Below, piece after piece: positions 9,641 to 62,867 of a DNA stretch of 64,000 bases (its first letter is position 1; every line of letters starts with the position of its first letter). The stretch is from Pegea sp. RAD2-039 (lineage: Eukaryota; Chordata; Thaliacea; Salpida; Salpidae). Below the pieces are notes generated by a model. The model was given only the letters and a program-made list of their open reading frames with translations, searched no databases and was not told the origin of the DNA. The stretch is from contig JAQGEQ010000071.1 of assembly GCA_034620365.1 (NCBI GenBank), positions 372,001 through 436,000 on the forward strand, in the 5' to 3' direction. The position numbers and the translations under genes were made by a program.

Positions 9641-10394
9641 ATAAATATTATTTAGAATTAATATGAAAACAAATAGAAAAAGATTTATAATACAAGGCAG
9701 TTCAATTAGTTGTAAAATTAATTGTAAAAATGTTACATTAAACATTCAGGTGATAGCAAAAGTTTTGATAGATATGTAATCAAATATATACTATGTTTAA
9801 TCAACCAAACTGATTATGATAACAACTGTAGCTTCAATTTATTTTGGATGTAAATAAAATTAATGCTATTTGATATTACTCCAAAAGCAATCAGCTTTTA
9901 CATGATGTACAAGTTTCTAATATTAGCGTGAGTATTTTTTACTTTCTAATAATACAACAAAACTATTTCTTTTTTAGTTAGTTCTTAAATAACGAATATA
10001 AATCCTATATAAATCATTTGCAACTAATGTTTGCGTTTTGATTTTTGCTTATATTTATATTCAAATAGTCAAAATTTACAGTGATTAAGGTATTTAACAA
10101 AATACACTTACTGGTTTCTTAATATTTTCCTTTTTATAAGATGTTTTTCATTATTTTTTAAATCAATATTCAAATTGGATCTTTAGTATTTTAAGTTAAA
10201 AAAAGGGTTAATTTAGCTGGTATTCTTAGGACATTTTGGTTCGCTTATTTTTTATTATTTCCAATTTTTGAAAATGGTCTTTCGTAATTTGCCTTTAAAA
10301 CAGTAATCTACCGTCATATGTTAAGTAAAATTATTAGTTACCTTCAAAGTAAAAATACTTTTAGTTATCTTCAATCAATGTTTTATCAGACATA

Positions 10395-10556
10395 ATTAGT
10401 TTGATTTTGAAAACTATACGTCAAACCATAGCATACCAAAATAAATTGATTTTGTCTGAATTAGATGTTTCTCAATTATGTTTGATTTTGAAAACTATAC
10501 GTCAAACCATAGCATACCAAAATAAATTGATTTTGTCTGAATTAGATGTTTCTCAA
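10395..10556. repeat. 81-bp tandem duplication, two copies
   Basis: The 76-base core beginning 'tttgattttgaaaactatac' occurs at 10400 and again at 10481 with no difference I can see. The copies are separated by the five bases 'ttatg'. The repeat creates a 78-codon open frame with an internally repeated peptide. That frame is almost certainly not a gene. Confidence 0.9.
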
Positions 10557-11486: not shown

Positions 11487-11939
11487 TTGAAATAAATGTA
11501 TCTGATGGTTAAATAAAAGTTTGTTGAATGTAAAATTATCGAAAGATTTCAACAATTCTATGTAATTAAAAATCGATTGAATCAATTCTATGCAAAAAAA
11601 TGTTTTAGAAGTTAATGGCGAAGGACTAGAAATACACTTTTTTGCTAAACTGCCATTTATGACTATTTAAAACTACATTTGGTGGTTTAGGTTAAGTAAA
11701 TAGAGAAATTCTGCAAGATTTCATGATTTGAATGATGAAAAAGCAAATACAACAAAATCTAAAAGGCACAAAACTAATAATTTCAAATCAAACTAATATT
11801 TAAAAAGTTTTTTGGTCTGCATCAGGTAGATTAATGAAGATAAATATGTGATTAAAGCCAAAGTTGGTATGAATATAATCATAAAATTAAAAGAATGATT
11901 GGATTTCATCCAATATTCAACTACTTGGCAATCAATAGT

Positions 11940-14900
11940 TTATTTCTCTGGTTGTGTTGGTGGTGCTGAAAAAATGAAAATGTTAAATGTCTCATCAGTT
12001 GGCTGAGAATGAAAACTAACCTTCAGTTGCTTGCTCGTTAGAAGCGACTATAGTAGTGACTAGCTCACGAAGGCTAGCTACTTCGTTCTTACCCATCTTC
12101 AAGTGAGCATTTAAGTTGTTAGCTTTTGCTTCCAAAGACTTGATAGACTAAAAACCAAACAATTCAAGTTAGATACAAAATGTTGATGCTATTAACAATA
12201 AACAGGAAATAGAAGACTCACATCTTCACTAGATTTCCGCTGGTTATCAACAGCAACTAAAACAGAGTTGAGACTCTTTTCCAAGTTTGAGATTTTGCCG
12301 TTAACAGCATCCACATGTGACTGTTGGACTGTATCTGTAATTGAAGTAAGTTGAAGCAATGTAAAGTTGAAAATAAAGATAAAAGATCAATCTGTAAACC
12401 TGCAAGAGCGGACCCTAATTGAGCTGTCAACTTCTCTTGTGCTGCTGCCAAACCTTTGTTTGAAGCCTATCAATTTGAACAAAAATGTTATTTACTTTGA
12501 AAACAAAGATACAAATAGCGGTTTAAGAAAAAATTCGTGAGACTTACTAGTACTTGTGCAAGATTCTGTTTGACAATTTCTAAGCCGTCAGATAAAGCAG
12601 AAGTTTTCTCCTCGATTATATCAGCTGCTGCCTTTCTGGATTGTTCAGCTAGTTGCTTTGCTTGCTGAGTTAGTAATCAAAATGTTAATTAAATTGAAAA
12701 ACAAATAAATAAACAAAAATATCAAGTAATAAAGATTAAAAGCAAAGTAGAATATGTTTTAACTTCTCATCGTATTTATTTTAAGTGAAAATTACTTTTC
12801 TTTAAGATTCAGCTCTTGAATTAAGACAAGAGTTAATATAAATTGAAAAGGAATGGAAAAATAAATAAGAGTAATAAAAAAATATTGAAGGCCCAAAATA
12901 GGAAGTCATACAAGGAAGTAATAGCTAAATAAAAAAAAGAACCAACAAAAACAGAAGTATTCACAAAATAGAAGAAGCAATAAACTTGTTTTAGGAACTT
13001 TTTACAAAAGCGACAAAGACAATTGTTTACTTACCACAGATTCAGCTACCGCCTTCGAAATTTCAGAAGCAAATATTTGTTCAACTGATTGAATCTAAAT
13101 AAATCAAAACTTTACTAAAAAATATCAATCAGCAAATATAGAAAATCAAACTTCAATACTTTTATACAATTCAATTGATTTGAAAAAGAAACTTGATTTT
13201 ATACTGACTTGTTTTTGAGTGAAATCTTGTTGAGTATTGATAGCTTCTTCAGTTACTTTGAATTGAGCAGCTACAGATTGTTTCGCAGCTTCGGACTCAA
13301 CTTTTAGTGACTCAATTGAGTTTTCAACATTAGCAAATTTTTCCAGAGTTTTTTGAACCTAATTGAAAAAAGTAATAATTTTATTAAAACTTAGAAATAA
13401 AAAATTAGTTAGAAATAAAAATAATAACGAAGATGAAAAGATTATTCACAAGTGATATAAGTAGAACTGAAGAAGTTTATACAACATTTCTAAAAGATAC
13501 AAAATACAAGGCTGAGTATTTTATATAAGAAAAATATCACATGCAGAAAGTATCATTTATCAAATATGGCTTTTAGTATATGAATAAGAAAATGTCATGA
13601 AAATAATTGATGTAATTTTAAAGTTGGTAAAAATCTTTATAATAAATTTTATAAAGTTTTATAAAGTTATTATAAAATTTATAATAATGAGTAATATTTG
13701 AGCATTCCAAAAAAGTAAACATCAAAAGTTGTAAAATGTGATGGCTGTTATTTAGAAAACATAAAGTTAGTAGAACTTCTTCAAGTAAATTTCGTCCAAT
13801 AAAGATCACTAGTGTTTGGAAATAAAAGATTATCATGCAAATAAGAGCACATTAATGAGATTCCTAAGATGTGTCTATGTGTGGAAACCTTTGAGTCAGA
13901 AGATTTGGCAGTTTCACGAATTTCGAAGAGATCTTTGCTCAAAGTCTCAACACTTGTCGTCATGGTGGATAGGGATTCTGTAACTTGATTAACCTTTTCT
14001 GCTTCTGTCTTCATCTTTATGTAATGATAAAATGAAACTTATGTCTTCATGTAAATATTATGTTATTTAAAACAGTTTTACTGAAGCTAACAATTAATTT
14101 AGTTTTAAATATGTTAAAGAAATCTTAAAGCTTAGTTGAAAGACAATTCAAAGACTTTTTAAAACTCGAAATAGAAATTTCAAACCGGTATTTGTAGTAT
14201 AATTTGCAACAATTTAGAAACTGAACAAGCTACAAAAAATGTTTTTAACTAAAGATTGTAAACGATCTGATACAACAGAATCAAATTACTGAAAGTGTTT
14301 TGTACATTTAAAATTTTCTGATTTAAAAAGTCAATAACTTTTGGCAAAATTTAGCTTATAATGGAATAACTAAGTTTTATGAAATATTTAAATAATTTAA
14401 AAGTGACTTTTTTAGATGTTTTAAATCTAAATCAATCAACCTTTCCATGAACTGCTTTTGCCCTTTCAGCAGCATCATTTAATTCGTAGTTGATACTTTC
14501 AACGTTTGATTTGATCGTAGAGAATTCATCTTTCAAATTTGTGATATCAAAGTACATCTTTAATTGACAAAAAATGAAAAGGTTTTATTGGATTATAGCA
14601 GATGATGTTTGTTTGATCAATTTCTTTGCATGATTAGAAGTAATGCCAGATTTTGATTATAAAGTGATTTGAAAACTTGAACTAACTGCATCAGCAAGCA
14701 AAATTCATTTGACAAACATGCAACTAATGATATAATGGTTTAATTTCGCAATCTTTTGTGAGTTGTGTTTAAACAAATAATAAAATCAGAGAATTGAGAT
14801 GTAACAGTGATTCTTTGAAATTAGGAGCTTTTAGTCAACTAAACTCTATTTATGTTGGTAAAGAAAAAAGTTTAAAATATAAATAAGAACAAAAAGCTGT

Positions 14901-17162
14901 GTGAGAATTTTTAGCTGTGTGAATTTGTACGATTAAAAAAACAATATTTGACAAAAGTAGAAAAAAACTAATTGAACAAAAAATTAATTGAACAAAAAAT
15001 TAATTGAACAAAAAATTAATTGAATAGAAAAATTAATTGAACAAAAAATTAATTGAACAAAAAATTAATTGAACAAAAAATTAATTGAACAAAAAATTAA
15101 TTGAACAAAAAATTAATTGAATAGAAAGACTAATTGATCAGAAAGAAGTCTCAGAGAGTTGAATGAAGAAGTAAGTTTTATTGTTGAAATAAAAAGACAA
15201 GAAGTTTGTTGGGTCTGATAACCTTCATGCTAAGCAAAATAAGAGTTAGGTTAAAATAAATGAATCTGACGAGCTATTAGTATAACTAAAAAGTGATTAA
15301 TTAAATTATGAACCTTAGATTCAGTGGACTTTGTAGCCTCAAGAGTCTCTTGAAAACCGCTGTTCAAATTATCAACGTTTTTCTTCACTACTAATACTGC
15401 ATCGTTCACTTGAACTAATTTGTCTGCTCCAGTATTGATCTTCATTTAAGCAAGAAGAAAATCAACGTGGCATCAAAATTATTTATCAGTTTAATTAAAG
15501 CTGTAAAATTTATCATGACAATCAAGAAGTTAGGTTTAGTAGGAAATTGATTTTGATAAATATCAGAAATATTTCTATTTATGCAATTGGCAAGTAAAGC
15601 AAATTAAACTGGAATTAAATATTTTCTAATCAATAGAAGCAAAGTAATTAAAAGATAAAATTGAATAAGATATATAAACTCAACATCAAAAAAATTTTGT
15701 CTCCTAAGAACCATCATATTTTAGTAGCTTTGTAGACAAAATGTTAGCAAATTTTCACTGATAATCATTCTTGATTTGATTTCAACAAAATATTTTGATA
15801 AAAGACTAATTTGTGTTAGTTATATTTTAACTTTTATATGAAATTAAATGATTCATAAATTTCTTTTAATGAAAATGATTATTTAAAGCTATTGGTGACA
15901 GCTGGCAGATTATTAATTACATTTTCAGAAAGTATATCAATTTCTGCAGAGTTGGTTTCAATATTTTCTTCAACACGTTGAAAACGGTTTTGAAGTAATT
16001 TTAACTCATTCATTTCTCTCATATTTTGTTCTTGCTAAAAAATGGAAAACATTTATTTTTAAATAAAGTTGTTTTAATGGATAGCTTTGAACTTGTACGA
16101 TTCGATAAAAAGATTAATCTTGAAAATTAAACTCTCAAAAGTTAAGTTTCATTAAGAACTCGATAAAACAAAACCCATAAACAACATTAAACGCAACAGT
16201 TTACCCCGCCAGACAATTTAGTGAAGAGAACAGCAATAAATGAACTTGTCTACCTGTAAGCGAGCTTGTTGTAAATCCTCTTTAAGTTGACCAATAGATT
16301 TAATTTCGTTTCTGAAATCAATAGCAGCAGATGACTCTTTTACGCTTGCAACCTCATTTTTCAATAAATCCATTTGAGCTAAGAGTACCTCATTACTTAA
16401 CCTCAGCTATAAAACATATAAACTCACTTTAATAAATAAGTTTTAACAAATTATTATTAAAAAAACTTGAAATTTCAAAATATAAAATCGAATTATAAAA
16501 GCTACCTCTTCCAAAACGTGAAAGAAGCCATATGAGCAGGCTGCTCCAAGAATCAAAGCAACAAAGAAGATGGAACAACAACCACTACCACTACTAGATT
16601 TTGGCTGAAATATATCACATAATAATAAAATTAAATTGAAATATAGTTGAAACTATATATCTCAGGTAAGTTTGGCCAAATAAAAAAAATAATTAGCTTT
16701 TTATAAAATTATGATTTTTATGAAAATTTAATGTTTCAAATAGAGTCAAATAATTCATCAGAGATAAACACTTCAAATTTACTTTTTCATGTTTGTTAAA
16801 GTACTATTAAGTAAATTCCTATTTAAAATCTAAGGGTTTTTAAGCAATCATTATAATAATTTCATTCAGAAGTTTAAATTTATGCAGCTGTTTGACAAAC
16901 TACATTAAAGAATAAAAAGTTGAAACAACAATATTGCACTAAGGTTGTTAAATTGAAACATTTGGCTTTAATAACAAAGTTTTCTGCTAAATTCATAAAA
17001 CAATTAGTTAAAGTTAGGTGACAATTATGGTTATAAAATTCATTTAGATATTAAATATTTATTTGAACCTTTCTAATTATACCTTATATAAACAAACTGG
17101 ATACTTACAGCAGCAACTTTTGAGTCTTCAGTCTTAACAACTTTGGTATCCTTTTTTCCCAT
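11940..17162 (-). CDS. Single-pass membrane protein with long coiled coil, CLIMP-63/CKAP4-like
   Basis: I resolve 14 coding exons (minus strand): 17162-17109, 16604-16506, 16406-16254, 16034-15921, 15439-15314, 14557-14441, 14014-13889, 13358-13209, 13094-13035, 12664-12548, 12466-12400, 12334-12222, 12147-12021, 11965-11940. They encode 482 residues with all phases consistent. The protein starts with a short Lys-rich head (MGKKDTKVVK), then a Ser/Gly stretch, a Cys27-Cys28 pair and one hydrophobic segment at about 29-46. HVLEE (47-51) follows, then about 420 residues of heptad-like coiled coil ending APPTQPEK. No signal peptide precedes the membrane segment, so a type II (N-terminus cytosolic) topology is likely. 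CKAP4/CLIMP-63, the ER-sheet spacer and microtubule anchor, has this layout and, as I recall, also a juxtamembrane Cys and an HVLEE-like sequence after its membrane span. Three exons are exactly 42 codons. A minus-strand AATAAA overlaps the stop codon, suggesting a very short 3' UTR. Gene structure is secure; the CKAP4 link is inference. Confidence 0.8.
13633..13686. repeat. Imperfect AT-only inverted repeat in an intron
   Basis: Two arms of about 18 bases made only of A and T (near 'ttataataaattttataa' and 'ttataaaatttataataa') flank a short centre inside an intron of the coiled-coil gene. It could form a hairpin, but AT-only palindromes are expected at this base composition. Confidence 0.4.
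14968..15144. repeat. 16-bp minisatellite, about 11 copies
   Basis: The unit aattgaacaaaaaatt is repeated head to tail about 11 times. Two copies carry 'aatagaa' in place of 'aacaaa', and the last unit is degenerate. It lies in the intron between the exons ending at 15314 and starting at 14557 of the coiled-coil gene, so it is transcribed but should be spliced out. Confidence 0.95.
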
Positions 17163-22725: not shown

Positions 22726-23700
22726 AATCTTAAATAAAAGCTTCATTCTATTGTCGTTGAAAGCTCACCACTTACTTATTTTCACCATAAACTACTTTCG
22801 ACATTAAAAATGAGTTTAATTAGAATTTAATTGTAACATACTAAAATATCTTGCATGTATGAACTATTGATTAAAACTTATTAGTTTATAAGCCTTTATA
22901 AAATTGTTATTTTACTACTTTAATGGCAAATCTGCTTATATGACCATATAAGTCACACAGAATGTAGCAGTAAGCTATTCTGATACAAGAGGACAGATAA
23001 GGAAATCTATTTCTGTTTTCTATCAACTTTGTAATGTCCATTAACCAAATTAGTTTCAACGTTGATTTACTTTATTTTAAAATTATGCTAACCTTATACC
23101 TTTAAAAATAATTAATGGTTTTATGAATGGTTTTATGTTAAAAGGTATTATCGTAATAATTTCATCCAAATTATAAAACTGAAGATACAAAAATGTAAAT
23201 AGTGTGTAATGAAGTGATAAAAATATCTGGCTATTTGAGAGAAATGTTTTCTACAAAGAACCAACAGAATAACTAAATTACTTAATTATAAAATTAAGAA
23301 GTCAATTATTTATTAAAATTCAAAAATAAAGTATTCCAAACAAATATTTGATAACTGAACATTTTCAGAAGTAGCTTATGAATGAATATTTAAACAATCA
23401 AACGTTACGTCAATTAAAATCTACGTAGTCATCTTAACCTCTAGTAAAGTTATTAATTTATCATTTTTATTAATTTATTGGTCAATTGTACAAGCAAATA
23501 TAATTCAAAATAGGTAAATGCAAATATATAGTTGTTGTGTTAGCAACTAGTTTTTTTTTAATCTTTTAAAACAGATCAAACATTTTTTACTGAAAATCTC
23601 TTAAATAATTTTTCCTTTTTTTATTGAATTAATGCATTGTACCATATACGTTAATACAACTCTCTGTCAATGATCAAATTATGACAAAAATAAACGTCTG
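22726..23700. other. AT-rich non-coding stretch upstream of the actin promoter
   Basis: I see no exon or repeat here. Distal actin control elements could lie in it, but no motif stands out against the AT background. Confidence 0.5.
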
Positions 23701-23709
23701 TGATGGTAG

Positions 23710-24005
23710 TTGTACTCAGCAAGCAGCACTGTCTATATTCTTCCACCCTATAAGTCTGTGCTTTGCGTCGCTACGCAGTTGCCTATACTTACTCTGATAC
23801 TTCCTTCCAAATATGGATTTTGCGGTCACAGCGTCATCTGCAAATCGCTATTGCTTCTCTCCCACAAGGCTTCATTTAGACAGCCGTACATTCTCTCACT
23901 TTTAATATATAAACCGACTTCATCTTCAGTGTTCACTCATATTCCAGCAACGGATCTCGAGCATCAGTTTTCTTGGACACATTTCTTGCATTTCACTTTT
24001 AAACG
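23710..24005 (+). promoter_or_regulatory. Actin promoter with CArG box, TATA box and non-coding first exon
   Basis: This 300-base island is clearly less AT-rich than its surroundings. It contains a perfect CArG box CCAAATATGG (23807-23816), the SRF site that drives muscle actin genes, and a TATA box TATATAAA (23906-23913). E-box cores CAGTTG (23776-23781) and CATCTG (23835-23840) flank the CArG box. Transcription should start about 30 bases after the TATA box, near 23940. The non-coding first exon ends at 24005 before GTAAGA. The matching acceptor is TTTTTCACAG ending at 25248, 18 bases before the actin ATG. The 99-codon frame across this island is not a gene. Confidence 0.75.
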
Positions 24006-25248
24006 GTAAGAAGTTAGATCTTTGATAATTTGTAAATCAGTTTACTAAGTTTTGTAGAGATTAGAATCAGAGTAAGATATAGAAAATTCAGCTATAGCTA
24101 GTATTTTTTAAATATAATCATTAAACTATCAAAGAACATCAAACTTTTTTAATATTAATAAGCAAACATTTTTCATTCGATCTTTTAATTTAGATAAGTT
24201 TTTATGAGTTAATATCATTTTACAACGTGTTTGAAAATAAATAGTTTTAAAAATTCTTATTTCTAAAATTTTGTTTTATTTCAAACTTTTTCCAGTAAAC
24301 TTACTTTGAATAAATTACGTTTTTTGTAACGATATAATTATGATAATATTTTATAATATTATATCATTTTATATAGTTATATTATAAGACAGTAACCATA
24401 TTAAGTAAAACAAAATAGAAAAAAACTGTATAATTATAAACTATAGTCGTTCGTCATAATGCATTTATGTATTTTCATCAATTTTTTTACAACTTAATTT
24501 AAAGTATTAAATATTAAACAAAGACTTTTGTAGCTTATAAGTTGTTCAAATTTTTAATTTGTTGTGCAATCGAATTTTCAACTGAATTCTATTTATTAAT
24601 ATTCTTTTATTAAAAACTAAAACTAAATCTAAAGCTGTCCAAAAACTTTTTATTAGATTAAATATCAGCAAACTTTAAATCAACCCAAGTATAGGTATTG
24701 TACATAATAATAATTTTTAATCCTTTTTTTAAGCAAAAAATAGTTTTGTAAATCGTGTAAAAAGTGAAATCAAAATTATGGTTAAAATGTTTGCAATGTA
24801 AATGAGATGGTTTCTTAAAATAAAAGCTTTAAATTAAAAATAAAGCAAATATTAAACGATATGAAATTAAACGGGAAAAAGTTATTCATTATATTATAAA
24901 GAAGTCCGAAGCATTTGAGATTGCAGTATCTGAATAAGATCTACTGTAATCTAGTAAATTGTTAATTAAGTATGTTGAAGTCACATCTATATTAGACAAA
25001 TTTCCAAATATAGTTAAAACCATATTTGATAATAAACAGCTGTTGTATGGGACGTTTGCTGACATTAACCATTACAATTACCTCATCATAAGTCGAATTG
25101 CATCATCCTACTTAAACTATTTGTCGTCATTAACAGACTCGGTTGTTCATTTCTTATCTATTAGCTAGATGAGATGTCAATCTTCTAACTTTATTTATCA
25201 TTCTTATTCTATTTTACAATCAGTTTCTTACTAGTTGATTTTTCACAG
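24006..25248 (+). other. 5' UTR intron of the actin gene
   Basis: This 1,243-bp intron runs from GTAAGA to TTTTTCACAG, joining the non-coding first exon to the exon with the start codon. A leading intron just before the start codon is usual in muscle actin genes. It contains a CAGCTG E-box at 25037-25042, a possible MyoD-type site. A 69-codon open frame near its end (24959-25168) has no supporting feature. Confidence 0.7.
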
Positions 25249-25266: not shown

Positions 25267-26696
<1,430 letters not shown>

Positions 26697-31486: not shown

Positions 31487-34400
31487 TCAAAGCACAAATA
31501 ATTTATAACAAACCGTCTTTTTTACTTCTTCCCGAACATCAGCTTTCATGAAAGCGTAAAGAATAGGATTTACACAAGAATTAGTAAACCCAAATACTAT
31601 ACCAAACAAACTAAGAATCTGTAGTGTAAAGAATATGCTTAATTTGGCATTATAATTAGGTAAATCTGGTTGATTTTATATCACATACAAAGGTAATAAA
31701 GGAAAACATTTCCTATTTAGATGAGAACAAATTTAGATTTAAATAGTTCGAGTTATTTGGTCAGATTTTACCATAATCTTTTCATAAGAAGAACGTTCAG
31801 ATAGACCAGATTAAAACTTTTAACATTTTTTATATTTTTAATTGATGCAAAGACTTGATATTGAAAAGCTGAGGTTTTTATGTATTTAGATATTTAGCAT
31901 CTATACTTTAATATTTTATAGTGAATCAACAACATGAAACAAAATAATTAAAGAGACTTCACTAACTATACCTCGCTTAATTGATCAGTTTTCATCACTC
32001 CGGAAAGTATGAGTAAATGTACAGTTATATTTGGCAACCAGCATATAATAAATGCACTAATTACAGTAAATATCATCTTAGTCACCTAAGAAAACAATTT
32101 CCGATTGCTTGATAAAAACTAACTCCTTTTGAACACATCAGCTTCAACAAGTTAATTATTTTTTGAGTTTTGATTAGTGGTTATTTTCTCTAACTACACA
32201 AACTGTTATCAACTTACTCTATGTTGTCTTCTAGCTAACATTGTTACACCTAAAGTAGATTCAGTGTTATGAGCTTGTCGCTGTAATCGTATGAAAATGA
32301 AAACGTAAGAAAAAATGATGATAGAAACAGGAATAAAGAATCCAAAGCTAAGTCGGACTGCTTGATGAGCTCTTTGAAAACTGGCAGAAGCTTTCCAAGT
32401 ACATATACTCACATTTGAAGAGCATTGTTCATTCTGAAGTTAATAATAATAACTTACCTAAAGAGTACTTTGAAACTCTGCTTAGTAAAACTTTACATAG
32501 GCAAATAGCAGCTAGATATTTGATAGATGCAAATAGGTTTACAAAAAGGATATTTATATCATATATCTTACTTCTATGACTTCACGAAAAATCAAACTTT
32601 CTGTTGCTATGAAAGTAGCTAGCAACCAAACAGTTGTTGAAGCTATTACAGCATTTTTTATAGTTCTTAAATGTCTAGATTTCGACACGAAGACTACAGC
32701 CAGAAATCGGTCAAGACTCATCATCACAAGAAAAAATACACTTCCATATAGGTTGAGAAGTGTGAAAAAGCTGATAACCTTACAGCCAATATTTCCGAAA
32801 ATCCATCTTTAAAGAAAAGATAGTTATCTATTTGGCAAATTTATGTAGTTTCCCAAAATAAGCACAAATATAAGTTTTTATTTGTCGTTATTATACGCTT
32901 GAATAACAGATATATGATCAGCAAGCAAAACAATTTGGTTTTAAAAAATCTGGGAGTTTTAAACTAGTCAGATTGCTAAATCGATCTAACTAATTTTGAA
33001 TAAAACTTTTCTTTTTACGCCAAATTACAAACTAAATGTGCTGCATTACGAGCAAGCTGTAAATATTATTTGATTGCAGTTGAATTAAATAAAAAAATAC
33101 ATTTTTATAATTACTTTAGAAAAGATGCAAACATATCTTATGACAACAATATAAAATATGATAATATCAAATTCATTCAGTTATAAATTCTACTCTAACT
33201 AAACACTCAAACTTATTTTATTTAATCTAAAACCTGGGATTAATTTGTTAAAAGTTTTGCTATTCTAAAAATAGTTCAAACTTCATGAAAATTTTACATT
33301 GGTTTTTTTCCATATATTGATTTAATCATTTATCAGCAGTAGCTATTATGATATTGAAACAAATATATCAAGTTTTTCTTTTTTTATTCCAAGTAGCCTT
33401 GATAAACTTTTTCCAAAAACGGGTTTTAATTCTTTGATAATGTAAAATTATATAGAAAGAAGTTTATAAGTAATAAAAATTAGGAGATTTATGTCTTACT
33501 ATTAAATTGAAGTATTGCCACCTTAAAAAATAGATAGAGTTCAAAAAAGTTAAAACGATATAGTTTTAAACTATGATTTTATTATCATTGTAAACTAAAA
33601 TCAACTTAAAATTATATCTGAAATTACATATATAATTTAAAAAAAAACGAGTTTCAATGCTTTTAGATTGATTTAATCAATAATCAAGATTTTTCAATTG
33701 TTTACTTCACTATTTTTAATATCTTTCACTTAGATTTTACTTACCATGTTCTGGTCAAGACTTTGGTAGAAAAAATAAAAGAATCAAAAATTTAATTTTA
33801 AATCATTAATTTAAATGTACATTATTTTTATTTTGCAATCAAAAAAAATAACATCAAAAAACTTCTGAGAAGATTCTAAGAAAGTTGACAAATTTATTAA
33901 TACTTCAAAAGCATAAAATTGTCAAAATCTAAAAATATATGAGTAAATTTTGAATACCTTTTAAAGAATGTATGCAAAATATAAATACTCTAACGTACTT
34001 TAACCAAACATTTTGGCTCACAGCATTTCCAAAAGCTAAAACTCTAAACAAATATAGAAATTTTGCTTTTAGTGATAATGTTTCAAAGGTGTTCTTTAAT
34101 TCGAATTATAAAAAACTTAAAAATACAGTTTTCAAACTTTAATTGCAACATTTTTTTTCAAATAGATTTTTTTTTCGTATGTTTTTAGTATCAATATAAA
34201 CACTGGCCAAAAATATGAAAAAAATTAAACAGAAAAACTCAATCAAAAACAAATATGAAATATTCTGTTTTGTAAAATCAGAAGAAGACATCATGTCAGA
34301 TGTTTGTTTTGATTAAAGGCAGCTGGATACTGGAGATTTTGAGTCAAAAATGTTTACAGTAGTATTCCACAGTAATTTTGTTTTCATTTCAGTATCTTAC

Positions 34401-35365
34401 AAAATAAAACTCTACTCTTTACGTATCTTGAAAAAAAACTATACATTTCAGTAAGATACTTTTTATAATTGTAATATTTGCGAGTTATTTTTACGTTTTG
34501 GTTATTCAACGAATCTTCATTACTAATTCATTTCAAGCAGTTCTTACCTTTTCTGAAAAACTGGCTACCCTAAAATATTTCAGAGTTGTGCAAGTTCTTA
34601 ACAATGCAAATCACAAAAAATGAATTAGCTTAAAGTCATTTGTAAATTATTTGATAAAAAATAAATTAGGATATTAGGATATAGTTTTAAAAATAATTAT
34701 AAGGAATTTATGAAATTACTAACTTAACTAAAATAAGTTCGTAAATTTGCTTGATAACCAATAAATAATTTATCTTTCATATTTTAAGATTTCCTTTTTT
34801 ATTATTACAGGTGTTTTAATTAGTTCTTTGTTTTTGATAGAATAATTTGATTTATTCTGAAGTTTTCTCAGTCATGTTCAAACATAGTGGAGGTCTTTAC
34901 TTTGTTTATTTAAATAAAAATACTTTTCATCAACTAAATTGAAAACATTTTATTTGAGTTTGTTTAGTTTAATCAAAATAGTAACAAGATAATCATCTAA
35001 TAAACAGTTATATATAAAAATACAAATATTATGGTAGTAATATTAGTATTCAAATGATTCATGATCAATCATGTTACTCACCTGCCTTGCTTAATTCTTT
35101 CGATAGCATGAAAAGGAAGAGTCGCCAAAAAGATTAAATCTGCGGCAGCTAGGTTCAACACAAGGACATTAGTAGCAGATGCTGGCCTCACACCAGTTCG
35201 ACTAAACTGCATATGCCTTCCAAGAATTCCCAAAACAAAAGCATTGCCAATTACACCGATGACAAATACCAACAAGAATATGAGTGGAACTACAGTAGTC
35301 TTAAGCAAAGCATACGATTCGACGCAGGAGTTGTTTGAATATTCTGCCAATGTTGATACATTCAT
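31487..35365 (-). CDS. Class A (rhodopsin-like) GPCR, probable peptide receptor
   Basis: Five exons (minus), 35365-35082, 32806-32572, 32433-32218, 32085-31972 and 31618-31487, give 326 residues with seven membrane segments. Family landmarks are in order: GN in TM1 (Asn41), LNLAAAD in TM2 (Asp76), WIFGNIGC with the TM3 Cys103, DRF at 127-129 (a DRY variant), Trp155 in TM4, Cys177 or Cys184 in loop 2, FIICWLP in TM6 (260-263) and NPILY in TM7 (300-304). The N-terminus has sequons at Asn2 and Asn11. The C-tail is only about 22 residues with Cys320 as a possible palmitoylation site. TM2-TM3 most resembles somatostatin/opioid/galanin/allatostatin-C-type receptors, but the ligand cannot be told. 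The first ATG of the frame is taken as start; the frame extends only to a TTG just before it. Intron 1 is about 2.3 kb. Confidence 0.93.
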
Positions 35366-35371
35366 TTCCAA

Positions 35372-38300
35372 TATTTATAGCTCTTCGCATAGATTACTAA
35401 GCTACGAAAGATTAAAACATTATTACCAAGTACGATTCGTATAAATAAGTAAATATTTAAAACAAGAATTGTTTTTTTTTAATTTTGAGAAGAGCAACTG
35501 TTTGCAAAAAATCAGAGTTTGACAAATTTCTAATTTAAAAAGTTAAAACTCAACTAATCTGATAATTATTGCTGGAATTAAAACTGTTCAATAATCTTAA
35601 TTATTCTTGATGTCATGCAATACTTTGGTAGATAGCTAATTGATATGAAATTTTTTCTGAATAATCACTTTAGTAGTAAACCTTTATTCTAGAAAAAAAT
35701 TGTTGACTATCTATTAATGTGTAGTTTCAACATTTAACAAAAAATAAATAAGATTGCAGCCTCAATTTTTGGAAGTTAAAGAACTTCTAGAAGTCTAATG
35801 ACAGAAACTCCTTGCAAATCTGCTCTTATATAACCAAGTAATATGTTCGAGCAGTTTTTTTTTCAATTCTGAATTTTTTCTCTATTCGTCTTAAACTTTT
35901 TTATGTATTTCTCATTAGTATTTATTATATATCGGTATTCTTAGTACCATATGATGATTAATTCAAAGGTAATAGCTTATAAATCTATATATGTATTTCT
36001 TGTGATAAATCTAGCTTAGAATAAAATTTTGAAAAATGTATTAAATGATTAAAATTAAAATGGAAATAATTAAAAGAAACTCAAGCTTAAGACAACTTTA
36101 AGTAATTAAATTAGTTGCCAAATTAAAATTGTCGTAAATTATCATGAAATTGTAATCTGTTTTTAGTTATAACTGATGTAATTAAAGTTACAAAAATGCA
36201 TAATTTGTTCGAAAAGATACATAACAGTTTTACAAAAAAATGATAATTATAAAAAGTTAAACAAAATTTTTCATAAAAGTATTTTTGTATTCGAATGGAA
36301 AGTTTTGAAAATTATAAATAAAGATTTTTTAAGACATAAAAAATTAGTTCAACTAATTATTTGAAGATGAACAATATTTTTATAGATAAGAAATATGAAA
36401 CTTTTTTTAGCTTTAGATATTCAATGCAATATTGATCCTATTTCTTTTATGATTCATTTTGTTAAATAAATTTGGCTGAAAAATCGATCCTGTATTAAAA
36501 ACTCTTACATCTCAATATGTTACAACAACTTAATGCAAAAAATTTATGTCAAACACGGTATAATTCAACCTACTCTTGATCGTAAGGGTGTTAAGATACA
36601 TTTTTTCAATTTTTAAACATTTTATTGAAGTTTCAAGTCCAGCAGACTAAAAAATTATATACTGACCAATAGTTTAAATTATGGAACCAACTTCTTGAGA
36701 AGAATCAAACAGAAGATTTGAAATGGGTAGCAGAAAATTATTTGCTTTTAATGTTATTAATTTTTGTTTCACTTTTTGAGCCAGGATTTAAACACCAAAT
36801 TAGTTTATAGCATTCCCAGATTGCTTGAATCATCTCTAGTAGGAAAATACTGAATCGAAAAGTAAAAAGCAAAAATTCGAGAAAAAAAAATTGTTTTTAT
36901 ATAAATCTTTCTTCTGACAACTTGTCATAAAATAGCATTCATGAAACTTTGTGGGTTGCCAAAAAATATATATTATATTTTTATTAAAAGTTTTAAAAAT
37001 TTATTTGTGAATTATCCCAGTCAGACCGCCCTGTTGATAGCCACTGCTTCAAACACTGGGGTCAAACTTTGAAATATCTCTAATAATCACAGAGCTTATT
37101 AATTACAAAAATTGTTTGTATTAAATTCAGTTTTATCGTATGATAAGTAAGTTAATATTTTTTGTAGATATACATTTTGATGAAGACTATTTAAGTTACT
37201 AGTTGCAATGTTCTTTATATGTAAGTTATGTAAATATCTTTTTGTACAGCTGTTGTCATAATTAAAGGTTTTCAATCAGTTAAATAATCTCAGATTTCTT
37301 AACTTAGAAGAATAATTAAATTTTGAGATCAAAATCCATTAAATTTTTAATTGAACTGTTGTTATTGAATTATTAAACACGTCATTTATTATAATATTTA
37401 ATTGATTAGTAATAAATAATAAATGAAAATTTTCAAGTTCGGCACCCTTTTCTAAATTATTCTAGTTTGTTATTTAATTAAAATGACAAGCAGATATAAT
37501 CTAACGCTGACATAAAGATTGATTTCTGATATTCATCCTAATCTACAGCTTTGCTTCTTCTATTTTTTTTTCAAACGTGATCTAGATAAGGATCAAATAA
37601 GCTTTACCATCTCTACAAAAATCCGTCTTAGCATTTTCAGCCAAGTCAACCAAAGATAAATTCAGATTTAATGACTTCTTTCGTCATTCTCTAAACTCTA
37701 TCTAATTATGATTGAATTTCGACTTAATATTTGGCACCAAAATAAATTTGTCCTTATCAATTTGAATCTTAAAAAAGCTTTCATTAAAATCAAACCAAAT
37801 TAAAAACACAGCAGTTTCATTTTTAGGGGTCATGTATTTTCTGTGTACATGTAAAATCCAAAAATAAAAGTTAATTATAAGAGAAAGCTACATTATCTAA
37901 CTTTGATAGTATTTAAATAATTTATTGTTATAACTATTTCAAATAATAACGAAATTCATTTACTAAAAATGTTACATACTACTTTATACTAATTTATAAA
38001 ATGTTACATACTAATTTATACTACAGGCAAGTTAAATCTTACTTTATTAAGTTCAGATTTTCAACTAAAATATATATATACACGCATAAAGTACAATAAT
38101 GATACAATAATGATATAACAATTGCATAAAAAATCATATAATACATATAAAATATATATATAAAGTTCATAGAACATACTTAAAGAGTAGTAATTTTTTT
38201 CCTGATCTCAGTTCTTTTAATTTGATTATTTTTGGCAAATAATGTCATGCAATTTTCAATCCTTTGAAAATAAAAAACAAAAGTGGAAGGTCAGGAAAGT

Positions 38301-49012: not shown

Positions 49013-49052
49013 TAGTTAACTGCTAACATCAGATAGCTCTTTTCTGTATTTT

Positions 49053-51438
49053 CTATTGCATCGTTCCAAACACGGGGTTGAAGCGACAGATACTTGGGCC
49101 AATTTCGTCATAGTCCGCTTTTGTGTGGCAAACCTTGTAGAATTCACCCTGAAAATCAAATTGATGATGAGATGAAGAAATGATCGATAATCAAAAACTC
49201 ACAGTTGAAGCAAGCATTGAGCCTCCAAACCAAACAGCGTATCTCTGCATACTATGAGTGATCACTTGCACTTCCATTGGCTTCGGCTGAAAGTAAAATG
49301 AATGAAAAACGGAATCTTGGGCCTCGGTGATGTACCTTGATTCTGCCTCCACTGAGTTGCTCGGAAAGACGAAGACGGGCGTCCACTACTCGCTTCAGAT
49401 CACGCTGCACACGGCGCCCAAAGTCTCGGAACATAGTCGACCCACCAGAAAGGACCACATTCTGAAATGGACAAGTTGTCAGGTTGCTGATAAGTTGGGT
49501 GGACTTAGTACTTTGTACAGGGGTCTTCGAACATCAATAGGACAGTTTTGAATGACGTCATCAACTACAGTGGAGATGGGAGTAGTGAAATCGGGATTGG
49601 AAAACTAAAATGAATTTCTGAATGAGATGTTTTGAAAGTAGTAGATAAGATGTACCTCAGGGTGGAAGAAGATCTCGGGTCCGAGGAAACGCTCGTGACC
49701 AACATCGATACAAAACTTCTGACGAGTCACCGAGTTTAAACCTTCAAATTGTTTGATCCATTTTCTCGGTTCAGCTTCATATTTGTTGAATTCTTTGGCG
49801 ATGTCAGGACAGATGTAACAGAATCGCTCCTAAATCAGTCCAATGTTGAAAGTGAATTGAAAGAGAACATTTCAGACCTTGACAGCTTTGGCAACTTCTA
49901 ATGATTGTTCAGGTGGAATTCCAGTTTCACGTTCACGTAGAAGTTGTTGAATGAAGTAGGTGATATCACGGCCGGCAATTGGAATGTGTTTGATACAACT
50001 TCCAATCACATAACCTTCAGCCTAATTGTTTAAACAAAGTTCGTTTAAAGTTTTAAACAAAAAAAAAGGTTTAAAAAATAAGAATTATTTTATCATTTTC
50101 AAGTCATGAATGAATCATTACATAACTCTTCAAATATGAAATAATTAGTAGCAACTTACAACAGGGATGACATGAGTAACACCATCTCCACTGTCGATGA
50201 CTGTACCAGTCAAAACACGCTCACCAACTGATCTTGATGTCCAGGATGCAGCAAGAGCAAGAACAGCCTTCAATTAAAATCACAAACTCAAAAGTTGCAA
50301 GCAAAACTGATATTTGAAGATTTAGTTAATACTTTTGTTAAACAACTTATTAACTATTAATTAACTTATTAACAAATAATATTGAAGCTTTCCACTGTTC
50401 ACGACTGAAGTAGAAATAATGATTAAGATACTGTACCTGTACAGCAATGTACAATCCAGGAACATTGAAAGACTCAAACATAATTTCAGCCAAGTATTCC
50501 CGATTTTCAGGAGTGTTTAGAGGTGGTTCGGTCTAAAGATAACAAATATATATAAGACAGACGCAAGCAGATTTGAAACCTATGAATACTTCATAAAACA
50601 AAATTGAAACATAAATGAAGGCAATTGTTATGAAAATATCAATATTTATTTTAAAACTATAAATATTTGATTTGATGTTTCAAATATAAAAGTATTAAAA
50701 GAAAGAAACTAACCATCAGGAAATGATGGTCCTCAGGTTCAGCTTTCAAACATTTGAAGATAATTTGCTCCATGTACTTCTCCATCAGATCCCAGTCTTC
50801 AACAATTCCATGTCTGACTGGCCACTGGGTTCAATAATAAACACATCAATAAGAAATTTTATTAAATTAAAAATACTTTATCAACTTGACTAATTAAATC
50901 AAAAAAATAAATTGTTGCTTCAATAATTAGTTGAATTTAGAGCTTTTTAATCAAAAACTTGATTAATAATCAAATGATCAAGGTTACTTTAACGGCATAG
51001 TTTGGTTTATCAGTGGCTTCATCACCAATAAAAAAGTCCAAGTCATCAACCCCTTTAGCAACTTTGTTGCCAACTTTAGCTGACTCTTTTACAGCAATAC
51101 CTTAAAAGGAAAGGTTATAATTTGAATATTTCAACTAATATAAAGAAGCAATTTTTTTAATTTGCTAATATTACTAATAGTCAACTAATCATACTTAGAA
51201 ACTGTATCAATAAACAAATTTATCAGAACTTACAAGAAGGTTGAATAAATTGGGGTTCTGTATTTCCAGCATATCCAAGCTTTGTATATCTTTTAAATAT
51301 AATTATTTAGTTTACAAGGTTATAAGCAATCATTTAAAAGCATAATTTAAAAACTTAAGTGATAAATTGATAAAACATTTCATTTCCTTACCCAGTACCA
51401 ATATCAACAACACAGGCAGGTAGTGTACCAAGAGCCAT
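49053..51438 (-). CDS. ACTR3: Actin-related protein 3 (Arp2/3 complex subunit)
   Basis: Twelve exons (minus): 51438-51392, 51289-51234, 51100-50988, 50824-50714, 50532-50437, 50267-50160, 50021-49878, 49829-49656, 49604-49512, 49461-49336, 49286-49203, 49148-49053. They encode 415 residues; human Arp3 has 418. Arp3 with Arp2 seeds branched actin filaments at the cell cortex. Nucleotide-binding loops [13 protein letters not shown] (12-24) and DSGDGVTH (from 166) are intact, as is [14 protein letters not shown]. The Arp3-specific insertion [21 protein letters not shown] is present but about four residues shorter than the human one. All introns from the third onward are phase 0. A good splice acceptor (TTATTTTTCAG, ending at 51467) lies 28 bases upstream of the ATG without an obvious partner exon, so a 5' UTR intron or trans-splicing is likely. 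Confidence 0.97.
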
Positions 51439-59165: not shown

Positions 59166-62100
59166 ATGCGATTATTCAACTTGAAGGCGGGATTTATTAT
59201 AAATGATTTACCAAAATATATTTTTCTTGTGAGTAAAATTTGTTTATTACAAAAAATAAACTTTTAAACAAAACTTTTATTTCCTGATAAATATTTTTTG
59301 ATATTTAACAAAACCATTTGTTGTTATAGATTGCATATTTTGTACTCAATGCTTTTCTTTTTGGATATTATTACAATTATTATGATACAGATGAAAAGTT
59401 TTATTACACAAGAATTCTGATAGGCAAAGGTCTGGCTTTAGCTAGAGCTCCAGCAGCATGTTTGAATTTGAATTGTTGCTTTGTGTTGCTACCAGTATGC
59501 AGAAATTTATTGTCATATTTTCGCCAGGCATGCATGGTAATTAATATATATTGTTTTTGTTTTCGATTTGAAAAGTTTTCAATATTCAAAAATTTTTACT
59601 CAAAATTACTTCAAAATATTTCTTTCAGTGTTGTCCTAGAAGAATTAAAAGAATATTAGATAAAAACATCAAATTTCACCGCATATGCGCTTATATGATT
59701 GTGTTGATGACAAGTAAGTTATTAAAATTTAAATAATTTTGTTTGTAATTGAAAATTACTTCCAAACAATTTATCTAAATTTTGTTATTGACAGTGATAC
59801 ACTATTACGCTCACTGTTTCAATGTTGAACTTTACAATAAAGCATATCAAATGGAGCTAAGCACTTCTGGCACCACAAAAGAAAACGATTTAATTAAACT
59901 AAAACAAGCTCTTGCAGCACTGCAAGATACTGATACAACTAGTTATATAAACCCTCTCAAAGTTGGCTCGGTAAAAAATTCATTTTTAGCGACTGCAAAA
60001 GTTTAATTGAAAAGTTTTTAATTGTAGAACGACAGATGGACTGTTGGAACAGTTTTTACTTTAACTGGTGGCTGGACAGGACTAATTATAACCAGTGCTT
60101 TGTTCCTAATGGTAACTTCGTCTGTAGAATTCATCAGACGATCTTATTTCGAGGTCTTCTGGTTTACACATCATCTTTTTATTGTTTTTTATGGCTTTCT
60201 TTTAGTACATGGAATATCGTAAGTAACAATTTTCTGTTCCAACTGAAGTTTGACTTCACTTTTTTATTGATTCAATTGATCAATTCAGGAGACAGGTTCG
60301 AGGACAAACCGATCAAAGTCTTCAAGAGCATCCTGTTTCTTGCAGAAAGACTCCAGATTTATGGGGGTCAGCTTCCGGAGAATGTCCCATTCCTCAGTTT
60401 GAAGGAAGTCCTCCTGGAGTAAGTCTAATAAGATACTTGTTTAAAATTTCAATTAAACAAAAATTCAAGATACAAAAGTTGAAAATTTTTAAAAAGTTTT
60501 TTTATCTATTTTTAATACTTTTGTTACAGACTTGGAAATGGATAGTTGGTCCGTTGATTCTTTATATAATTGAAAGAATTATCCGAATATTTCGAAATTA
60601 TCAGCAAGTGAAAATACTCAAAGTAAAAAAAATATTTTCATTTTCTGCCACATAAGAAATATTTCTTTGAAAAATTCATTTTTTTCTAACAAAGGTTATC
60701 AAACATCCTTCAAAAGTCTTTGAAATCCAGATGAGAAAGAAGAAGTTTAAGGCGGAAGTTGGTCAATACATTTTCTTGAAATGTGAGAAACTTTCCGCTT
60801 TGGAATGGCATCCATTCACCTTGACATCAGTTAGTATCAATCATCAATCAATTGAATCTTTCAACGAACTGTTTGAAGGCTCCTGAGGAAGATTATTGTA
60901 GTGTCCACATCAGGGTTGTAGGAGATTGGACAACAGGACTTAGTAAGCTGGTCAGTGGTGGTACAGATGTAAGTTTTTTATCTATTTTTTATGATTATTT
61001 GTTTTAAATTGATTTTAAAGTTTCTTGTTTAATAAAAAGTCATTAAAAAGTTTTGAAATCATAAAAAGCTGCTTGGCTGTTAAAAGAGTTACTTTTTATT
61101 CTTTGAATTCACTTTGAATTTTTCATTATTGCTTTATTATCATAAGGGGTTTTAACTTCTTTTAAAAAATCATACTTTAGTTTATTTTTAACTTAATATG
61201 TTTTGTTTATTTGTAAAACAAACAATGATTTATTTCTAACTTTCTTAAATCATCCAACCTAAAGAAACACTAAACTGGAAAGTTATATGATTTTATCTTT
61301 CTCAATATTTTTGATAGAGTTTTTAAATCGAATTGAACATTGTATCAACAAACTCATAACACGATTACATTTCCTTGTTTTACAACATCTTTAGTTTTGA
61401 ACGGAAATATTGTGTTAAGTCTAAATAAAGCATTTGCAGATTACACCATCTGACCAGATGCCCAAAATGGCGATTGATGGACCTTTTGGAACTGCCAGTG
61501 AAGATGTCTTTATGTATGATGCAGCTATTTGCGTCGGATCAGGAATAGGAGTCACCCCATTTGCGTCTTTACTCAAATCTGTTTGGTTCGTTCTTTTTGA
61601 AAATTATTTTGATCTTTGTAACACATTGAGAAAAATGTGTGGACAGCAAACACGATGCTAAGATCTTCAAAAAAGTCTCGTAAAGGACATTTATTTAAAT
61701 TTAAAATAAAAAATTTACATTTTAAAGCTACGCACCACTAAGCATAAAAAACTTCTCGCTACAACTTCAGCTACTAGCAGCAACATTTTATCCTAATATA
61801 TCTAAGTGCTACTAATACAATTATTAAGTATAATTTCTTCTATTTTAATGAGAAATCATTTAATTGATTTTTCTGAATTTAATTCGATAGAAGTTTATTT
61901 GTATCGAGAACTTCTGCTTGATACAAAGTTTACATGAAAAACTTTACATTATTTCAGGTACAAAAACCTGGACCCTAATTTTAATATGCATCTGAAAAAA
62001 GTTTATTTCTTTTGGATCTGCCCTGAAATTAATGCATTTGAGTGGTTTGGAGATATGTTAATTCACCTTGAAAATCAACTGAATGAAGTTGGTCGCTCAG

Positions 62101-62867
62101 AACTAATTGAATATCACATCTATCTAACAAGAGGCTGGGATACGAAGCAGGTACATCGACAACTAACCTCGCAAATATTTTTATTTCTAACTTAGTCATG
62201 ACTCATGCTGTGAGCGAAAATATTCTGAAATATTTTCAACTAAATAATTAACAATTTTTATCTGAAGAAAAATTTGAATTAATTATTAAACAATAATTTA
62301 ATATAAGATTCCAAATTCCATACAAATTGTTTTTGAGAGTAAATGAGTTATATATGAGGTTCAGATTTAATTTAAAAATTTTCTATGTATAAAAAGATTT
62401 TTATTTTCAGATTTTTATTTGAAATTTATCTAAACGAAGTAATTACAAAGTTGCAGCTTTTAGTAACTCGTTGTCATTTCACTAATTATTTCCTTGATTT
62501 TATCATCGTTTGTTTACATTTTTTCATTATTACTTCGGATCTTGTTTCTGATCAGAATTATTCAACTTCCTTTTCAGGCTAAAACTATTTTTGCTCACGC
62601 TGAAGATAAAACAGACCTTATAACTGGTTTGGGTCAGAAAACTAATTATGGAAGACCAAACTGGGATGATGTCTTTAAAAGTGTTGCTAAAAATCATCCA
62701 AATAAAGACATTGGAGTCTTTTTTTGTGGAGTAGCAGCTCTTTCTCATATTGTAAGTTACTTGTTAATTGTAATTTTATCAAATATATTTTTTATCAGCT
62801 GCACAAGATGAGTAACAAATATTCTGTTGATGGAGTTCGATTTCATTACAATAAAGAAAACTTCTAG
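59166..62867 (+). CDS. NADPH oxidase, NOX2-like catalytic subunit
   Basis: Thirteen exons, 59166-59228, 59330-59536, 59629-59713, 59795-59970, 60028-60218, 60289-60418, 60530-60622, 60695-60829, 60879-60968, 61440-61585, 61958-62150, 62578-62751, 62799-62867, encode 583 residues (human NOX2: 570). The enzyme passes electrons from NADPH through FAD and two haems across the membrane to make superoxide. The four haem ligands align: His107, His121, His225, His238 (human 101, 115, 209, 222). ARAPAACLN and [13 protein letters not shown] mark the transmembrane core. HPFTLTS (354-360) binds [12 protein letters not shown] (404-412) and GSGIGVTP (423-430) bind NADPH. The chain ends in KENF like NOX2. 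There are no EF hands, so it is not NOX5 or DUOX. The CGP motif near the C-terminus is CGV (553-555). It presumably needs p22phox and cytosolic partners. Confidence 0.96.

Follow-up and report, generated by a model that had tools for sequence, protein, structure and literature searches.

Gene structure and coding potential

The window analysed here, a 64,000-nucleotide stretch of the genome of the salp Pegea sp. RAD2-039 (GenBank assembly GCA_034620365.1, contig JAQGEQ010000071.1, positions 372,001 to 436,000), carries on its minus strand, from 17162 to 11940, a gene whose 14 exons splice into one closed frame of 482 amino acids. Its product is laid out like CKAP4 (CLIMP-63), the vertebrate protein that spaces the sheets of the endoplasmic reticulum (ER). 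The frame opens with a start codon at 17162 in the context ATCATGG (A at -3, G at +4) and closes with a TAA stop that ends at 11940; an AG located 7 nt ahead of the ATG could serve as a trans-splice acceptor. All 13 introns are bordered by GT-AG, with phase 0 in 11 cases and phase 1 in two (between exons 11 and 12 and between exons 13 and 14). A weak point of the gene model lies in the donors, of which 5 of 13 begin with GTT. The 482-residue protein that a preliminary description had reconstructed from this DNA was rebuilt here as 14 GT-AG exons with a closed frame and coding codon usage, and the gene is confirmed as real by sequence.

Exon 1 (17109..17162) supplies the ATG and residues 1-18 of a basic head (MGKKDTKVVKTEDSKVAA), ends in phase 0 at a GTAAGT donor and is read in its best codon frame. 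Across a 504 bp intron, exon 2 (16506..16604) encodes residues 19-51, comprising Cys27-Cys28, the predicted membrane span (about residues 29-47) and, directly after the span and at the exon end, HVLEE (47-51). This exon has no Met ahead of the span, its phase matches that of exons 1 and 3, and its borders are GT-AG (acceptor TTTCAG, donor GTAGCT). After an intron of 99 bp, the coiled coil begins in exon 3 (16254..16406; residues 52-102) and continues through exons 4 (15921..16034; 103-140), 5 (15314..15439; 141-182), 6 (14441..14557; 183-221), 7 (13889..14014; 222-263), 8 (13209..13358; 264-313), 9 (13035..13094; 314-333) and 10 (12548..12664; 334-372). Exon 11 (12400..12466) covers residues 373-394 and the first base of codon 395, exon 12 (12222..12334) starts in phase 1 and runs from the remainder of that codon to residue 432, and exon 13 (12021..12147), the last coil exon, encodes residues 433-474 and the first base of codon 475. 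Exon 14 (11940..11965) adds residues 475-482 (APPTQPEK) and the TAA. All exons lie on the minus strand.

Codon usage tabulated from parts of three genes of the window (actin, adenylate kinase and oxidase) was contrasted with the gene's own introns. Read in frame, every one of the 14 exons scored positive, and this frame was the highest of the three in 13; the exception is exon 14 (26 nt), whose in-frame score is positive and not the best of three, while the choice of frame for exon 11 is narrow (8.7 versus 7.3). The G+C content is 0.38 in the coding sequence and 0.23 in the introns. A search of the host assembly (105.7 Mb, 387 contigs) at E ≤ 1 returned 18 matches, 13 of which are the gene's own exons and the remaining five of which are weak (E 0.03 to 0.49, on contigs C11, C262 and C80); no second copy of the gene was seen at this threshold.

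An AATAAA at 11939-11944 (minus strand, first base 11944) overlaps the stop codon, so the 3' untranslated region may be as short as a few tens of bases. Intron 5 holds a minisatellite of 16 bp units in about 11 copies (14962-15144), and downstream of the gene two near-identical 81 bp units lie within an open reading frame (ORF) of 90 amino acids (10394-10556).

Architecture of the encoded protein

The head (residues 1-28) is basic, with a charge of +6/-3, and is followed by a single predicted span with a Kyte-Doolittle value of about 2.0 (19-residue windows within residues 27-48). Residues 47-61, beyond the span, carry a charge of +1/-3. Because the head is basic and the post-span segment acidic, the positive-inside rule places the C-terminus in the lumen. 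Cysteines occur only at positions 27, 28 and 41, none of them after the span, and the Cys27-Cys28 pair, positioned at the membrane face, could be a site of S-acylation.

Residues 52-470 are heptad-periodic: the hydrophobic power at a period of 3.5 residues is 0.78, compared with 0.24 ± 0.06 in shuffled sequences (0 of 1000 reaching it), and nearly equals the value for human CKAP4 (0.77). This region contains no Pro, Trp or Cys, and no lysine-rich stretch follows the span. At a helix rise of 0.1485 nm per residue, its 419 residues would measure about 62 nm as a straight helix bundle (by arithmetic). Sequence, hydropathy, charge and periodicity thereby confirm the basic head, Cys pair, single predicted span, HVLEE and long coil noted in the preliminary description.

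Exon duplication in the rod

Among the 36 pairs compared, formed from nine coil exons, exons 5 and 7 were clearly related (z 5.0, 0 of 500 shuffles) and are duplicates of one another. Exon 6 showed weak kinship with exons 5, 7 and 8 (pairs 5-6, 6-7 and 6-8; z 3.3-3.5, 1 of 500 shuffles each). The pair formed by exons 3 and 13 likewise reached z 3.3, and such a lone weak pair may be due to chance among the pairs tested. This duplicate pair shows that exon duplication contributed to the growth of the rod. The phase-0 exons of 39-42 residues in the rod correspond to about six heptads, and copying one of them leaves the reading frame intact; one duplicated exon of 42 residues amounts to about 6 nm as a straight helix.

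Similarity to CKAP4

The comparison with CKAP4 was made against a single human sequence, whose length (602 residues) and cysteines (100 and 126) agree with PMC6931119 and PMC9844198. Common to both proteins are a type II arrangement, Cys on the cytosolic side of a single span, HVLEE directly after this span, a long heptad coil (about 420 residues here versus 470 in CKAP4) and a post-span region that lacks both Cys and N-x-S/T sequons. The CLIMP-63-type layout is thus borne out by gene model, hydropathy, charge and heptads. The salp protein differs in that its coil can be aligned with that of CKAP4 only as generic heptads, and in that it is encoded by 14 exons, two of them duplicates, in a tunicate host.

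Residue-level similarity was found in the block formed by the Cys pair, the span and HVLEE, which aligned with the equivalent block of CKAP4 at a local score of 47. Of 20,000 segment-wise shuffles, 114 did as well; the number rose to 273 when shuffling was confined to the post-span part and to 922 when it was confined to the span. Among 186 six-frame ORFs with a membrane-like stretch, mostly non-coding and drawn from the window and the fetched loci (leaving out eight loci that overlap the gene), only the gene's own exon reached 47. The juxtamembrane score against CKAP4 was 49 (15 of 4000 shuffles), compared with 31 for kinectin (KTN1; 150 of 4000 shuffles) and 17-30 for the remaining six of the seven other anchored proteins. 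Of these, p180 (RRBP1), which like kinectin combines an N-terminal span with a long coil and was compared by its N-terminal part, as kinectin was, scored 17. GOLM1, GOLIM4, PLVAP, BST2 and MSR1 (partial sequences for GOLIM4 and MSR1), in which a type II span also precedes a coil, scored 20-30; each of these five has 1-7 sequons and 1-10 Cys, counted over the whole stretch compared and not after the span alone.

Span and coil together scored 160 against CKAP4, a value reached by none of 1000 pattern-preserving shuffles and none of 59 rotations, and the gain over these controls comes from the span. A signal obtained by shuffling the whole protein (0 of 1000) was rejected: such shuffles had destroyed the heptads, and pattern-preserving, reversed and rotated controls erased the signal in the coil. 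Homology with CKAP4 is suggested by the span/HVLEE block, with the balance close to even, and the gene was not filed as a CKAP4 member. The proposal that it could be a chordate homologue of CKAP4 outside vertebrates, or else a convergent design, is supported in part: the similarity of the block stands on the side of homology, and no whole-protein match, CKAP4 retrieval or residue signal in the coil accompanies it.

Database and literature searches

A Pfam scan of the 482-residue protein returned 12 weak matches, none above the cut-off (the best being Laminin_II at 21.1 bits versus 33). No significant match over the whole protein was obtained with the single CKAP4 sequence compared. Neither the mitofilin domain nor the p180/kinectin family PF05104 was among the 12 families listed for the protein; a separate search for PF05104 gave no match either, with a control that was likewise silent, so that absence of this family is not shown. 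Sequence comparison with the PDB yielded three matches, none significant (E 0.49 to 1.8), and no relatives were found in phage records, viral contigs or prokaryote genome contigs (from 0, 8 and 73 candidate stretches, respectively).

A 50-species survey of the factors that shape the ER places the origin of CLIMP-63 before Danio rerio (zebrafish), while its Table 1 lists 'Metazoa' as the origin; its main text mentions neither Ciona nor Branchiostoma nor tunicates (PMC9804665). Caenorhabditis elegans is described as having no CLIMP-63 homologue (PMC8507493). The literature search returned no paper on a tunicate or Ciona CKAP4 or on a lamprey CLIMP-63; tunicate genome annotations lay outside this search, and a CKAP4-like label may exist there.

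Proposed function and alternative explanations

The gene most plausibly encodes a type II ER protein with a lumenal coil that acts as a spacer and, by a slight preponderance of the evidence, probably represents a diverged relative of CKAP4 in tunicates. This reading builds on the gene structure by sequence, the tunicate host, the hydropathy of the span, the charge bias, the heptads and the duplication of exons 5 and 7. The product would be a single-span protein oriented N-in, C-out, with its 28-residue basic head in the cytosol, the Cys pair at the membrane face available for S-acylation and a coil of roughly 420 residues in the ER lumen. Coils in one membrane would bundle with each other (in cis) and also associate with those of the opposite membrane (in trans), and this self-association would set the width of ER sheets, as with CLIMP-63. 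In the course of its descent, the span/HVLEE block would have been retained, while the rod would have drifted and been partly rebuilt by duplication of phase-0 exons. A CLIMP-63-like function of the gene product is likely. The mammalian protein is described in PMC9844198 as a type II protein whose tail lies in the cytosol and whose coil multimerises in the lumen, and in the human protein C100 at the cytosolic membrane face is S-acylated. Sheet width in mammalian cells is reported to correlate with the length of the lumenal part of Climp63, and is about 50 nm in the wild type versus 30 nm without CLIMP-63 (PMC6931119). The lumenal domain, once purified, associates with itself, although less strongly than had been expected (PMC7308479). 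The head of the salp protein, 28 residues and basic, leaves little room for a microtubule-binding N-terminal tail of the size found in CKAP4 (about 100 residues), so the product may space sheets without tethering them to microtubules.

Several results weigh against this reading. The head comprises 28 residues versus 106 in CKAP4, and no ER retention signal was recognised in the 482-residue protein. Sequons after the span number 0 versus 4.9-5.1 expected (P 0.0036-0.0039), which mildly supports a lumenal coil without glycosylation, but the reverse-sequon control count is only 3, so the depletion is modest; for CKAP4 the corresponding figures are 0 versus 1.3 (P 0.25). Against CKAP4, the coil alone scored below its own reversed sequence (133 versus 145; local 136 versus 152), and its score was equalled by 19 of 54 rotations and 50 of 1000 pattern-preserving shuffles. 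A search of the host assembly with CKAP4 residues 100-602 at E ≤ 10 did not retrieve the gene; its three matches (E 1.1-2.3) all lie outside it. By blastp against the single CKAP4 sequence, the best piece reached E 0.20 and was not collinear, and the piece joining span to span reached E 0.28. In phmmer, the block matched CKAP4 at 7.0 bits, a value negligible in a database search, where an unrelated PDB chain reaches 11.1. Finally, CKAP4 had been preselected for its resemblance by the preliminary description, which makes single-test P values flattering.

Alternatively, the gene may encode a convergent type II coiled-coil protein of the tunicate ER or Golgi, unrelated to CKAP4, with HVLEE next to the span by chance. 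The coil lacks a residue-level signal, CKAP4 does not retrieve the gene, no E-value is significant, and the juxtamembrane P (15 of 4000) rises to about 0.03 after correction for the eight proteins compared. The matching residues nevertheless occupy the equivalent position next to the span, no other of the eight proteins compared gives such a match, and the other 185 membrane-like ORFs never reach the score of the CKAP4 block; convergence is a possible but less probable explanation. Kinectin gave the second-best juxtamembrane alignment (31; 150 of 4000 shuffles), which would fit a cytosolic coil that scaffolds the outside of ER sheets. p180 and kinectin are ER sheet proteins in mammals, with a topology opposite to that proposed here and with lysine-rich stretches. 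Their coils are cytosolic (PMC7308479). In the salp protein, the basic 28-residue head before the span and the acidic residues after it argue for an N-in orientation, and with no sequons in the coil and no lysine-rich stretch after the span this arrangement appears improbable.

It is still less probable that exon 2, with the membrane span, is part of a different transcript and that the coil is a soluble protein. The gene model was built from the genomic sequence, a 504 bp intron separates exons 1 and 2, and GTT donors are weak, yet none of them adjoins exon 2. This exon offers no Met ahead of the span, fits both neighbours in phase, lies 99 bp from exon 3 and has GT-AG borders and coding codon usage. 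An inner-membrane coiled-coil protein of mitochondria, of the Mic60/mitofilin type, would share the N-terminal span followed by a coil; a head without Arg and with three acidic residues is unlike a presequence, and mitofilin is missing from the 12 listed Pfam families, leaving this the least credible of the explanations considered.

If the favoured reading of a CKAP4 relative is correct, lumenal spacing would be at least as old as the last ancestor shared by tunicates and vertebrates. Routine searches could then overlook the gene, since only about 25 residues stay similar. A stronger form, held tentatively and somewhat short of an even chance, is that the gene is a true tunicate orthologue of CKAP4: the spacer would then predate vertebrates, with only the span/HVLEE block constrained and the rod length changeable by duplication of phase-0 exons, and evolution could adjust the width of ER sheets through the number of exons. 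Under convergence, the same solution to spacing would have evolved twice. With either reading, the duplicated coil exons offer a way to test whether rod length is linked to ER width.

Host genome and neighbouring genes

The preliminary description had made chordate homology depend on a tunicate host, and this host is upheld by two lines of evidence. On assembly contig C14 (66500-76400; locus L018:5639-8237), an ORF of cellulose-synthase type (GT2) matched PF13632 (62.6 bits) and PF03552 (31.3 bits), both above cut-off, and a GH6 ORF (PF01341, 35 bits, above cut-off) follows on that strand, some 1.5 kb further downstream. We infer that the two ORFs belong to one gene, in the pairing that is characteristic of the tunicate cellulose synthase. 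In the window, an intron-bearing muscle-type actin gene is found at 25267-26693 (plus strand); 44 muscle-type or unlabelled chains rank ahead of any chain that is cytoplasmic or from C. elegans (841 versus 815 bits, among the best 60 of 111 matches), a ranking that fits chordate muscle actin. Mitochondrial COX1, sought in the assembly for a test of the ascidian code, gave no match, and Rfam and tRNA scans of the window were likewise without a match.

Other genes of the window include rhodopsin-type G protein-coupled receptor exons (32212-35374, minus strand; PF00001 at 63 bits in one piece and 23 bits, below cut-off, in another), an adenylate kinase (PF00406; 47053-48017, plus strand) and a small Tim (PF02953; 55714-55884, plus strand). 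Actin-family exons at 49019-51101 (minus strand), which presumably represent Arp3, gave PF00022 at 24.5 bits, below cut-off, in the piece scanned. At 59779-62808 (plus strand), PF08030 was detected in one of two pieces scanned of a gene that we take to be NADPH-oxidase-like. Three weakly matching regions of the assembly were dropped as coiled-coil controls, their longest forward ORFs being composed of short repeats (L019 and L021) or enzyme-like (L020): L019 (C11:879500-885500) holds a long ORF of 857 amino acids with PVTREFE and LNQLPEN repeat units, and L021 (C80:722900-725600) one of 648 amino acids with KPSTTTS units. A G+C-rich island at 23633-24036, with 90-base windows of up to 0.48, contains several overlapping ORFs.

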